From positions 1-20,264 of IMG/VR virus record IMGVR_UViG_3300030450_002413: a DNA stretch of 20,264 nt; one strand, 5' to 3'. Made by a program: the position numbers and the translations under genes. Source of the DNA: a virus. Numbering within the stretch: the stretch's first letter is position 1; each line of letters starts with the position of its first letter. Shown here in pieces: positions 15,147 to 18,700 of this stretch. Below the pieces are notes generated by a model. That model had not been told where the DNA came from, made no database searches, and saw nothing but the letters and a program-made list of their open reading frames with translations.

Positions 15147-15380
15147 ATGTTTCAAAAAGTTTGTAATTATCTTTCTATTTTATCCACTGTCTTAGTTCTG
15201 GGAATACTGGGCGGTGGTTTTTTTACATTTAAGTATGTCCAATCTCCTCAGTTTCAGAACAAGATTATGAATTTGATATTATCTGATGTGCAAAAACTTA
15301 TGCCAAAGATGTTAGATAATAACCTCCAGGAAATAACAGGGCCATCACTACCAATCCCATCAAAAAAAATTGGTTTATGA
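15147..15380 (+). CDS. Small single-pass membrane protein
   Basis: A 77-residue protein. Residues 8-30 (YLSILSTVLVLGILGGGFFTFKY) form one hydrophobic segment after a short basic start (MFQKVCN), so an N-in/C-out orientation is likely. The rest is helical and amphipathic (NKIMNLILSDVQKLMPKMLD), then a Pro-rich end (GPSLPIPSKKIGL). I recall similar proteins in marine cyanophages but not a function. Size and single membrane span allow a holin, antiholin or spanin-like part; no direct evidence separates these. A GGAGG 13 bases upstream is farther than usual. The stop overlaps the next ATG as ATGA (15377-15380). Confidence 0.65.
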   Translation: MFQKVCNYLSILSTVLVLGILGGGFFTFKYVQSPQFQNKIMNLILSDVQKLMPKMLDNNLQEITGPSLPIPSKKIGL

Positions 15381-15544
15381 ATTGTTGGTATTGCAAAGGA
15401 GAGTTAGAGTTTGAAAAAGAAACCGATATTGACCAAGATTTTGAACCTATTTTATTTGCAGAATTTTCAGTAAAAACTAATCTATCTTGCCCAAAATGTT
15501 TTTCATCAGTGCAAGCTTTTAAAAGAAGAGATGCCTATGACTGA
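15377..15544 (+). CDS. Zinc-ribbon micro-protein (two CxxC)
   Basis: A 55-residue protein. C3-W-Y-C6 and C38-P-K-C41 form a four-Cys zinc ribbon, separated by an acidic stretch (ELEFEKETDIDQDFEP) and a strand leading to the second pair (SVKTNLSC). The end is basic (AFKRRDAYD). I recall a MNCWYCKxEL...NLSCPKC protein in cyanophages. Zinc ribbons of this size usually bind nucleic acid or a protein partner such as RNA polymerase. It is coupled by ATGA to the membrane gene before it and overlaps the next gene, so all three are made together. Function unknown. Confidence 0.7.
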   Translation: MNCWYCKGELEFEKETDIDQDFEPILFAEFSVKTNLSCPKCFSSVQAFKRRDAYD

Positions 15545-16181
15545 AATAATAGAAATAATAATTCCAAAGATACCACAGATAAATATAAACACTTACATTT
15601 CTACTCCTTTACCTGTTTTAAATGTACCTTTACCAAATATAGATCTTCCTGGGTGCGTTAAGACCCATAGAGATGCTTCAGTAAAAAATACACAGATAAT
15701 AGAAGATGATGTAAATGGTGCGTTTTATAGTTGCCCTCAAGGAAAAATCCCCTCTTTTGTACCGATAAACTATGACAGAAGGAGAATACAGATTGTAGAG
15801 CAAAAACAAGAAAGCCCTCCAAGAAGACCTGATATCCCACAAGCAAAACAGTCTGAAATACCTGATATTCCAAAAAAAAAAGAAACGATAAAACTAGAAC
15901 CTTGTCCAGGAAAAAATAATCAAAGGGTTGGGGATTTTCGTAACGAAAAACGTTTAGAACGTGTCATCGGCCATGAAAGAGGGGATGATGGGATAGAGTG
16001 CATAACGATCTATGAGGATGTTCCCTTTACGAGTCAATACATTCCAGAAGTTTCTACTGTTGTATCTACTGCTATTATTGGCTTGGTCGCTGCCAGTTCT
16101 CCACTTTTACTTAATATCATCAAACCATTAGTTAAGAATATCGTAAAGAAACTGACAAAGAAGAAAGATAAGGTAGAATAA
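15537..16181 (+). CDS. Proline-rich protein with C-terminal membrane segment
   Basis: A 214-residue protein. An Ile/Pro-rich start (EIIEIIIPKIPQININTYIS, PLPVLNVPLPNIDLPGC) leads to HRDASVKNTQIIEDDVNGAFYSCPQG, a Pro/Lys-rich linker (about 85-120), a core (PCPGKNNQRVGDFRNEKRLERVIGHERGDDGIECITIYEDV), a hydrophobic segment (about 170-195) and a Lys-rich tail (KKLTKKKDKVE). That fits a C-terminal membrane anchor with cytoplasmic Lys tail. I recall this family in marine cyanophages, function unknown. Two starts are possible: 15531 and 15537. GAAGAG (15525-15530) is 6 bases before 15537 but abuts 15531, so 15537 is preferred. Confidence 0.7.
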   Translation: MTEIIEIIIPKIPQININTYISTPLPVLNVPLPNIDLPGCVKTHRDASVKNTQIIEDDVNGAFYSCPQGKIPSFVPINYDRRRIQIVEQKQESPPRRPDIPQAKQSEIPDIPKKKETIKLEPCPGKNNQRVGDFRNEKRLERVIGHERGDDGIECITIYEDVPFTSQYIPEVSTVVSTAIIGLVAASSPLLLNIIKPLVKNIVKKLTKKKDKVE

Positions 16182-16320: not shown

Positions 16321-16360
16321 GTAGATAGGTTTTGATTGTTTCCTATCTACCTTTCTTTTA
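16321..16360 (+). terminator. Rho-independent terminator between convergent operons
   Basis: GTAGATAGG (16321-16329) and CCTATCTAC (16342-16350) form a perfect 9-base-pair stem with a 12-base loop, followed by CTTTCTTTT (16351-16359). It would stop plus-strand transcripts before they run antisense into the minus operon. On the minus strand the same stem includes the last gene's stop codon (16347-16349), but no T-run follows it. Confidence 0.6.
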
Positions 16361-17168
16361 ATATTTTGTGGGTGTGAGGTAATACCTGATTAGCCTTTGG
16401 CACTAAATAAACATCCTTACAAATATTAAAAAATGGACTATCAGTGGTTAACATAATACCCTCCTGTTTTAATTTGCCACATTCCCGAATCCTTGCGATT
16501 TGCCAGTCTAATCGTTTATTCTCTAATACTTGTTTTTGTATATTTATCTGAGTATCAGCAGCAGATTTACATTGATTCTGTAAGCCACGATCTAATGGAA
16601 TACTAAAAGATGCTGAGACTCCAAAATTCAAAGCATAACTATCTTTATTTGTTCCAGAATAATTTCTTTGATAATAAAGAATATTCCCTGGGTTATCTGG
16701 TACACCATCTCCTATTGGGTTTCCATCATCATCAAAATCACCTTTTAAATCTGTTGGGTCATACACTGGCGTCTCATAAAAGTCTCTAAATGGTTTTTGA
16801 TAATTTACTCCAAAAGTACTAAAAGGGCTTATTGTGAGGGTCGGCCCCTGACAAACAACATTTCCTCCGTACTGATTAGTTGTCATATTACCCGTCAAAC
16901 TTTGAATCGCCATATTCGTGACGCTTCCGTTGTTTGATTGTGAAACAGCATTAGCGAACACTTGTGTAGGTGATAGCAGAATTATTGAGAGAACACTGAG
17001 GTACTTGTGACTACGCTTTGCGACTCTATATTTCTTTGGATCGTTGTTACGTTTGATATTCCACCTGGGCCACGATAAGTTTCCGTAAATTGAAATGCGT
17101 TTCCAGAATTTGGATTTGTTAGATTGAATACTGGTTTGCTTTCTGTTGATAAGTCTAAACCTGTCCAT
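16347..17168 (-). CDS. Exported hypothetical protein with calcium-loop motif; start uncertain
   Basis: In 273-residue numbering, residues 51-72 (KRSHKYLSVLSIILLSPTQVFA) look like a Sec signal peptide cut before NAVSQ. The mature part has four Cys (106, 200, 230, 250), a D-x-D-D-D-G...DGVPDNPGN stretch (144-162) like a thrombospondin type 3 calcium loop, beta segments (LTISPFSTFGVNY, LNFGVSASFSIPLD) and a helical charged end. The only in-frame ATG/GTG/TTG before the signal is at 17168, which would put 50 residues ahead of it; those residues are the shifted frame of the preceding gene, so the true start is probably a rare codon near 17018-16982. I recall the mature domain from marine cyanophages, function unknown. 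Confidence 0.6.
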   Translation of the reverse strand: MDRFRLINRKQTSIQSNKSKFWKRISIYGNLSWPRWNIKRNNDPKKYRVAKRSHKYLSVLSIILLSPTQVFANAVSQSNNGSVTNMAIQSLTGNMTTNQYGGNVVCQGPTLTISPFSTFGVNYQKPFRDFYETPVYDPTDLKGDFDDDGNPIGDGVPDNPGNILYYQRNYSGTNKDSYALNFGVSASFSIPLDRGLQNQCKSAADTQINIQKQVLENKRLDWQIARIRECGKLKQEGIMLTTDSPFFNICKDVYLVPKANQVLPHTHKILKER

Positions 17169-17422
17169 GTATAGCTTTGTCCACCTACTGTCCCGTTAAC
17201 ATCCGTTGTATCTGGAGCGACTGATCCATCGGTTGTGACACCCAATCCAGTAACAGTATATTCATAAGAATTACCATGATAATCTGTAGAAGTGATAGTC
17301 TCATTTATAGATGTAGTTGTATTCGTAGTGCTGGACATCGTACCAGTTGTAAAATTCGGCACCACGGGTTGGGATTTAACAGGTACAACATATAGCAAAA
17401 GCAACAATAAGAGTTTTTTCAT
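16982..17422 (-). CDS. Exported Thr/Ser-rich hypothetical protein
   Basis: A 146-residue protein starting with a textbook signal peptide: MKK, an unbroken Leu run (LLLLLLLYVVPV), likely cut near KS/QPVV. The mature part is Thr/Ser/Asn-rich and beta-prone (TTTSINETITSTDYHGNSYEYTVTGLGV; NAFQFTETYRGPGG) without Cys, consistent with a secreted or surface beta protein. It starts 3 bases after the preceding gene's stop. Its 3' part shares up to 187 bases with the longest reading of the next gene, in another frame. Repeated Thr patterns recall adhesin-like or glycosylatable proteins, but no family is recognised. Confidence 0.7.
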   Translation of the reverse strand: MKKLLLLLLLYVVPVKSQPVVPNFTTGTMSSTTNTTTSINETITSTDYHGNSYEYTVTGLGVTTDGSVAPDTTDVNGTVGGQSYTWTGLDLSTESKPVFNLTNPNSGNAFQFTETYRGPGGISNVTTIQRNIESQSVVTSTSVFSQ

Positions 17423-17425
17423 AAA

Positions 17426-17932
17426 TCATCTTATAGTTAGCTCCGTGACAAACTGTCCTGTAACAGTAGAACCTGCATCACCCTCATGTAATCCTGTGAT
17501 CCCATGACCTGATGTAATAGAACCTGCAAAACCATCTCCACTTCCAGCTACAGTTGAAATTACACTACCAAAGTTAGGAACTGTTCCAGCTGTAATATTG
17601 CTATTGCTATCAGGAATCGTGTCTGCTGCTGTAAATGATTCTGTTAATGACCAAGTGCTTGCACAGTTAGCAGGTGTTTCTCCACAACCATTTATAGAAT
17701 AATCTCCAGCGTTTAGAGTAACTGCATTGTTGCTTACAGTTAGTCCTCCAATCTGATCGTTTGAATCACTTGTTCCTATATTGCTGCCCGAAGCACTATA
17801 AGAAGCACCAATCCGTGTGGCTTGTGTCATGGCCGCGTCAACTTTTACGCTTACGCTTGATGTAAATTTTGAAGTTATGTCAGCGTGAACTGGTGCTGAT
17901 ACTAAAAATAGGAATAGAAATAGCTTTTTCAT
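17426..17932 (-). CDS. Exported Ser/Gly-rich hypothetical protein
   Basis: A 168-residue protein. The signal peptide is MKKLFLFLFLVSAPVHA, cut before DITSKF (A-x-A-like site). The mature part is Ser/Gly/Ala/Thr-rich with likely strands (KFTSSVSVKVDAAM, IGGLTVSNNAVTLNAGDYSING) and one Cys pair (83, 90, NGCGETPANC) that could form a disulfide outside the cytoplasm. The end (ITSGHGITGLHEGDAGSTVTGQFVTELTIR) is Gly-rich. It overlaps the membrane-protein gene before it by 4 bases (ATGA) and precedes another signal-peptide gene by 3 bases. Function unknown; I recall relatives in marine cyanophages. Confidence 0.72.
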   Translation of the reverse strand: MKKLFLFLFLVSAPVHADITSKFTSSVSVKVDAAMTQATRIGASYSASGSNIGTSDSNDQIGGLTVSNNAVTLNAGDYSINGCGETPANCASTWSLTESFTAADTIPDSNSNITAGTVPNFGSVISTVAGSGDGFAGSITSGHGITGLHEGDAGSTVTGQFVTELTIR

Positions 17933-18300
17933 TTCTTTGTAGGGGGTGGATCAATAATCTCTGCTCCTATTATTTTAATAGGGGTTTCTACTCTTATAGT
18001 CTGCACCGAACCGTTATTATTTGCAAGTTTCTTAGTCTCCTCCTGAGTTTCTTTGCGTTTTTTAGATCCCTCAAGGCCAAATGTCGCTAATGCACCCGTA
18101 AGCAAACTCGCTGGAAATGTTATGTCTTTGGGTTCTGTACTATATCCAGGGATCGTTATGTAGTTAAGAGAAACAATAAAACCAGACCAAACTACAACAC
18201 CCAATCTTACAAAAAGACTGATTATCGCCAATTGTTCTTCTTTATCGTCAATGCTTTCTTTTATCTTTTGCAATGGATTTTTCTTTTTTTCTTCAACCAT
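17929..18300 (-). CDS. Holin-like small membrane protein
   Basis: A 123-residue protein from the ATG at 18300. A charged start (MVEEKKKNPLQKIKESIDDKEEQ) is followed by a hydrophobic segment (LAIISLFVRLGVVVWSGFIVSLNYI, about 24-48), IPGYSTEPKD, a second weaker segment (ITFPASLLTGALATFGLEG), and a long charged tail (SKKRKETQEETKKL) with VETPIKIIGAEIID near the end. Two short membrane segments and a charged tail fit a holin, but no holin family is clearly matched. The frame opens at 18357, but that start would overlap the divergent gene at 18343 and add an extra hydrophobic stretch, so 18300 is preferred. First gene of the minus operon. Confidence 0.68.
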   Translation of the reverse strand: MVEEKKKNPLQKIKESIDDKEEQLAIISLFVRLGVVVWSGFIVSLNYITIPGYSTEPKDITFPASLLTGALATFGLEGSKKRKETQEETKKLANNNGSVQTIRVETPIKIIGAEIIDPPPTKK

Positions 18301-18342: not shown

Positions 18343-18504
18343 ATGCCAGAGGTACACGCAGCACTGATTGGGGCAGCAGCCACCGCCTTCCTCATGGTTT
18401 TATCTAATATAAGCAACAGAAGAGAAAGAGATATCAGAGAAATTTTTAACAGAATCAATCAACTGGAGAAAGCCGTAAGTCGTATTGAGGGGCAGAATCG
18501 CTAA
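18343..18504 (+). CDS. Small N-terminal membrane-anchored helical protein
   Basis: A 53-residue protein. MPEVHAALIGAAATAFLMVL is one hydrophobic segment after a short acidic start, followed by a charged helix (NRRERDIREIFNRINQLEKA) with heptad-like spacing and SRIEGQNR at the end. This N-out or N-in anchor plus cytoplasmic coil recalls small proteins from cyanophages and some antiholins. The Arg cluster right after the segment suggests the tail stays in the cytoplasm. It is divergent to the exported-protein operon and 34 bases before the next small gene. Function unknown. Confidence 0.62.
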   Translation: MPEVHAALIGAAATAFLMVLSNISNRRERDIREIFNRINQLEKAVSRIEGQNR

Positions 18505-18538
18505 TCTTTGGTATGTTTGGGAAAGAACACAAACATTT

Positions 18539-18700
18539 ATGTCTAAATTTTTAATCAACCTGTTTATCAAGTTCGGCAAGTCGGAAAGTCTACGCAAAGC
18601 CTGTTTATCGCTCTTAAAAGACTTGGCAGCCAAATCAGATAATGACGTAGACGATGCCATCGTCAAGATGATTGAAGAAAAACTCTTCCCAGTAAAATGA
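18539..18700 (+). CDS. Small helical hypothetical protein
   Basis: A 53-residue protein beginning MSKFLINLFIKFGKSESLRKA, then CLSLLKDLAAKSDNDVDDAIVKMIEEKLFPVK. The start is hydrophobic-aromatic and amphipathic; the rest is a charged helix pair. The frame is open from a TTG at 18485, but that would overlap the previous gene and add an unlike sequence, so the ATG at 18539 is chosen. The stop overlaps the next ATG as ATGA (18697-18700). I recall like proteins in cyanophages; no function known. Confidence 0.62.
   Translation: MSKFLINLFIKFGKSESLRKACLSLLKDLAAKSDNDVDDAIVKMIEEKLFPVK

Follow-up and report, generated by a model that had tools for sequence, protein, structure and literature searches.

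We identified in a siphovirus-like phage a conserved gene cassette that, judging from its genomic place, its timing motifs, its distribution and its neighbours, is somewhat more probably than otherwise (a probability of roughly 0.55) a late host-lysis, or envelope-disruption, module of marine picocyanobacterial phages. A large fraction of marine Synechococcus and Prochlorococcus cells is lysed by cyanophages, and to our knowledge lysis genes have not been named for most of them. A lysis role for the cassette, if it holds, would open this question to direct tests in model pairs, for example P-SSP7 and Prochlorococcus MED4, and assign a function to hundreds of records labelled 'hypothetical protein'.

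The window, meaning the whole 20,264-nucleotide stretch analysed (positions 1 to 20,264 of IMG/VR record IMGVR_UViG_3300030450_002413), belongs to a 34,184-base record whose TerL, portal, lambda-type tail and recombination genes identify the phage as siphovirus-like. Genes A to D lie on the minus strand at 16347-18300, opposed to the plus-strand tail operon. A sequence-only reading of the window had proposed a four-gene operon here, and the strand and the first two junctions bear it out: the end of A (17929) and the start of B (17932) share ATGA in a 4-nt overlap, and a 3-nt gap separates the end of B (17426) from the start of C (17422). D does not follow C as that reading had it; instead, the last 187 nt of C also encode the beginning of D, which starts at ATG 17168 in the -1 frame. 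The start codon of A is ATG 18300, with GTG 18357 as an alternative. The cassette is also wider than 16347-18300, as the convergent genes E and F are part of the unit, and gene H accompanies it in the siphovirus-like group only. Terminator and promoter scans within the window gave nothing above chance level. The features are as follows, with GenBank labels of the families given as T4-GC numbers:

Gene A, 17929..18300, minus strand: 123 aa; DUF6450/phrog_2714; T4-GC 218; short holin-like inner-membrane protein with charged ends
Gene B, 17426..17932, minus strand: 168 aa; phrog_564; T4-GC 237; Sec signal peptide, beta-rich, predicted to be exported
Gene C, 16982..17422, minus strand: 146 aa; phrog_650/DUF6322; T4-GC 236; Sec signal peptide, all-beta model
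Gene D, 16347..17168, minus strand: 273 aa; phrog_848; T4-GC 235, 'gp165'; start within C, -1 frame
C/D overlap, 16982..17168, minus strand: 187 nt in two coding frames
Gene E, 15531..16181, plus strand: 216 aa; phrog_570; T4-GC 234; Pro-rich; convergent to D
Gene F, 15147..15380, plus strand: 77 aa; phrog_568; T4-GC 414; single N-terminal transmembrane segment
Gene H, 18343..18504, plus strand: 53 aa; one transmembrane segment; divergent from A
Gene I, 18485..18700, plus strand: 71 aa; phrog_2738/402; comes after D in podoviruses

The products of A to D match phage families far over chance (phrog_2714/DUF6450, 2e-34; phrog_564, 1e-37; phrog_650/DUF6322, 1e-39; phrog_848, 1e-75), none of them with a named function. 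The sequence-only reading had offered the genes as an undescribed system, a claim overtaken by a passage of Sullivan et al. (2010; PMC3037559), which reports a cassette of T4-GC 218/219/234/235/237 in 15 of 16 cyanomyoviruses, with function unknown, and treats the gene set as conserved and possibly mobile, together with a 'plasmid stability' gene. Profile and tblastn matches, along with gene order in loci L001 and L007 and in 80 IMG/VR loci, make membership of this published cassette firm. The gene families are the same, found here in a siphovirus-like phage and also in T7-like phages; relative to that passage, what is new comprises these T7-like and lambda-tailed hosts, the C/D overlap, the late-promoter motifs and the relations to endolysin genes, the last three of which it does not describe. 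Phage records retrieved by tblastn numbered 436 for D, 395 for B, 393 for C and 310 for A, nearly all from marine cyanophages, and the cassette is common to those with contractile, long non-contractile and short tails. Of the 25 loci whose flanks are long enough, all have B, C and E, 24 have F and 23 have A. A genome scan for host homologues returned only phage-like or co-amplified contigs.

In T7, the interval between tail fibre and terminase holds the holin gene 17.5 and the spanin genes 18.5/18.7. In P-SSP7 and its relatives, an E-like gene, A, C, D and I lie between the tail fibre genes and the terminase small subunit gene, so that this block occupies the place of the T7 holin and spanin genes, which favours lysis. 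The same reading is favoured by the lack of any named holin, endolysin or lysozyme in P-SSP7 and of lysis families among the ten largest open reading frames tested outside the window of the 34-kb record. A PHROG scan of 20 uncharacterised or tail proteins of P-SSP7 gave one partial endolysin match only, to gp50, which counts against lysis, as does the missing o-spanin lipobox.

The sequence-only reading took the product of A to be a membrane protein, and hydropathy agrees, with one strong segment at residues 25-43 and a weaker, sub-threshold second one; P-SSP7 gp43, of the same family, has two transmembrane segments listed in its record. Like class II holins (lambdoid phage 21 S, T7 gp17.5), A is a short membrane protein with charged ends, and its homologues sit at the T7 holin place in P-SSP7 and against a C39 endolysin-like gene in one contig (L093). 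It differs from them in length (123 aa versus 65-95 aa) and shows no above-threshold similarity to a named holin family. E has a C-terminal transmembrane segment with a basic tail by hydropathy, and the profile similarity of its podovirus counterpart, gp42, is weak. Relatives of F carry the label 'plasmid stability'; since F is tied to the cassette and encodes a membrane protein of 77 aa with a single pass, both this label and the mobility idea resting on it look doubtful.

The timing motifs come from the T4-like loci, in which TAAATA lies within 150 nt upstream of B in 38 of 50 (2.1 expected) and of A in 41 of 50 (3.9 expected), with ATAAATA mostly 24-35 nt ahead of the start. The published cyanophage late promoter is NATAAATA (PMC2984593). 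These motifs upstream of B and A favour lysis; a T4-type late promoter was neither expected nor found in the window's own siphovirus-like group.

The relation to endolysin genes points the same way, with qualifications. The three genes A, C and D are jointly present in 14 and jointly absent in 8 of 22 complete genomes, so the genes do co-occur elsewhere, which supports the sequence-only reading. S-PM2-type C39, GH24 or RlpA genes are found in all eight cassette-free genomes, which were picked for carrying S-PM2-like C39 or RlpA genes, and clearly in one of the 14 cassette-bearing ones; the informative part is therefore that such genes are confined, among these 14, to DSL-LC03, apart from a weak C39 match in P-GSP1. 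An exact test of the alternation gives 3e-5, or 1.4e-4 if the weak P-GSP1 match is counted, for a panel that includes related phages and whose members were picked by a single trait at a time. Amidase_2 is absent from all 22 genomes. The C39 and GH24 endolysins with RlpA of S-PM2, S-CREM1, S-SZBM1 and ACG-2014f, which are enzymes of known fold and non-homologous to every cassette gene, occur mostly where the cassette is missing, and nrdB lies close to the cassette in S-RIM44 and close to the endolysin in S-CREM1 and S-CRM01.

Both this joint presence or absence with alternation and the endolysin genes found near the cassette in DSL-LC03 and several lineages favour lysis. In DSL-LC03, two endolysin genes precede A by up to 2 kb and D by up to 4 kb. 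A C39-like gene is close to the cassette in ten contigs, from IMG/VR and elsewhere and of distinct lineages (L037, L042, L064, L049, L063, L068, L072, L084, L091, L093), lying 1-3 kb away in several lineages and directly behind A in L093, and it adjoins the cassette in 8 of 80 IMG/VR loci. A itself is beside an endolysin or endolysin-like gene in L093 and close to one in L049, L063, L084 and DSL-LC03, an arrangement not seen in the window. As DSL-LC03 and several contigs have both, a strict replacement of the endolysin by the cassette is ruled out, and the looseness of the alternation counts against lysis, as does the expectation that cassette phages should still require a wall-cutting enzyme, which was not found in most of them. 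In one group (L063:2847-3638; L049, L068, L072, L084) the match to C39 stays below threshold and another residue apparently occupies the position of the catalytic Cys, so the protein may be inactive and, from its sequence, is possibly a wall-binding remnant.

The sequence-only reading assigned Sec-type signal peptides to three proteins, and C and D do have an N-terminal hydrophobic segment; in B the hydrophobic stretch is shorter, and in all three a small residue comes next, where cleavage is plausible. What did not hold is the position of D's start, as no start codon lies at the peptide quoted for it, and the signal peptide falls at about residues 55-72 of the protein given here. No lipobox Cys occurs at the signal-peptide ends of B, C or D. 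A B profile finds C open reading frames, and hhalign aligns C with B at probability 94 (E 1e-7), which makes the two proteins remote paralogues. An AlphaFold2 model of C (pLDDT 82.8) is all-beta and includes two long strands, of 22-23 residues each, and that of D combines beta structure with a 42-residue helix at low confidence (pLDDT 68.3). PDB fold searches with both models gave no significant match, a PDB profile search gave nothing for C and D and a single chance row for B, and a viral structure library searched with C returned likely family members only. C was also considered as a beta-barrel pore toxin and rejected, because the Foldseek and VIA rows lie close to chance level, with a best Z of 3.9 over about 40 residues. 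The 'calcium-loop-like motif' noted earlier, DFDDDGNPIGDGVPDNPG, is present in D; it is shortened or lost in several relatives and is thus not essential to the D family.

We propose that A, F and E would reside in the inner membrane, with A acting in a holin-like manner when infection ends. B, C and D would be made from the late stage on, exported and processed by the host Sec pathway, and accumulate as periplasmic oligomers of beta structure, whose target would be the outer membrane or the wall; D, translated from its own start codon inside C, would have its output tied to that of C. Some phages would combine this module with a C39-type endolysin, and most would operate it without a recognisable endolysin. 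We put forward tentatively, as possible but doubtful, the stronger version, in which the cyanobacterial envelope is broken without a recognisable endolysin, by a holin-like protein together with two or three Sec-exported beta proteins, the latter assembled in the periplasm or outer membrane, the key exported pair comes from overlapping genes, and most marine cyanophages of all three tail types use this system in place of a holin-endolysin-spanin set. Against lysis, no catalytic or known lysis domain was found in A-F, and no PDB match by sequence or fold.

The sequence-only reading, whose proposal of an envelope role is supported along with Sec export, listed envelope disruption at lysis beside superinfection exclusion and host aggregation. 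Genomic context favours the first; exclusion fits poorly with the late-promoter motifs and the alternation with endolysins and is less likely than lysis, and aggregation is not supported. A broader alternative, which we regard as unlikely, is that the exported proteins form a complex not meant for lysis, within the host's outer membrane or on it; as a channel or surface layer, it would keep other phages out, alter the receptor or export molecules late in infection. Three predicted Sec-exported, beta-rich proteins would suit such a complex, and so would the resemblance of D to TolC-type outer-membrane proteins, which is weak and non-significant both by sequence (Pfam OEP at E 0.005, below cut-off, in 2 of 73 members) and by fold (Foldseek E above 1, with a D model of pLDDT 68). 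The late-promoter motifs are late for exclusion, however, and such a complex does not predict joint presence or absence with lysis-type genes or C39 neighbours.

It is quite improbable that B, C and D belong to the virion or its assembly machinery and only resemble exported proteins. The late-promoter motifs and the position next to tail genes, in the window and in podoviruses, would fit that role, but the proteins are common to phages with contractile, long non-contractile and short tails, unlike tail parts, and D keeps a processable signal peptide, with a normal n-region of 11 residues in P-SSP2. They are only 'hypothetical' in S-TIM5, although its record names neighbouring virion proteins, and none of them matched a virion component in our searches.

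The overlap of C and D is a constant feature of the cassette. D's stop-to-stop frame overlaps C, always in the -1 frame, in 87 of 87 loci and 6 of 6 podoviruses. Where a third-position T in C would create a stop in the D frame, T occurs in 0 of 946 contexts inside the overlap versus 304 of 872 upstream (0 of 302 versus 98 of 282 in a thinned set of 25 sequences), counts that are conditional on D being found as an open reading frame, as it was in every locus with C and D; in the other alternative frame, stops occur both in the overlap and upstream. D's ATG sits on a conserved Trp codon of C, and the base preceding TGG is A in 72 of 76 sequences (22 of 24 thinned) versus a 33% background. In P-SSP2 and DSL-LC03, short-start forms place the start of D near its signal peptide, which indicates that D is a separate exported protein. 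In five loci of the siphovirus-like group (L015, L016, L018, L019, L024), Tyr replaces the conserved Trp of C, and the D frame is open but without ATG, GTG or TTG; a conserved ATC ahead of the signal peptide is a possible non-AUG start.

A model in which programmed -1 frameshifting yields D solely as a fusion to C, with the C signal peptide exporting both, would accord with the invariant frame and these five loci, but we count it as rejected and very improbable, as the slippery heptamer is not conserved (13 of 87, sites scattered), D has its own signal peptide, its frame is often closed shortly before the conserved ATG, whose A is retained, and the short-start forms exist.

Under the lysis reading, C and D may be compared with the Rz/Rz1 spanins, likewise a pair of envelope proteins whose genes overlap in different frames and lie among the late genes near terminase. 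Unlike the spanins, C and D have no lipobox, C lacks an N-terminal membrane anchor and coiled coil, and both are instead soluble-type Sec exports.

Several annotations merit mention. D is annotated too short, with its signal peptide lost, in P-SSP7 (L102:13616-14239), P-SSM4 (L007:7235-8113), S-RIM44 (L006:4971-5897) and P-SSM2 (L101:4842-6230), and C is left unannotated in 9515-10a and NATL1A-7. Cyanophage contigs (L089-L093, L095, L096) are binned in GTDB bacterial or archaeal genomes assigned to Nonlabens, Lewinella, Chloroflexota, Formosa, Bacteroidetes, Euryarchaeota and Gammaproteobacteria, probably through contamination. P-SSP7 gp50 (L102:15360-17066), an uncharacterised 568-aa protein whose gene adjoins terminase, matches an endolysin PHROG at E 1e-9 over 99 residues, which Pfam did not confirm. 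The S-PM2 'putative lysin' p157 (L109:18286-18696; S-PM2 116286-116696) is annotated at 72 aa; its lysozyme domain match spans a 169-aa open frame, and on this evidence the gene is likely full-length.
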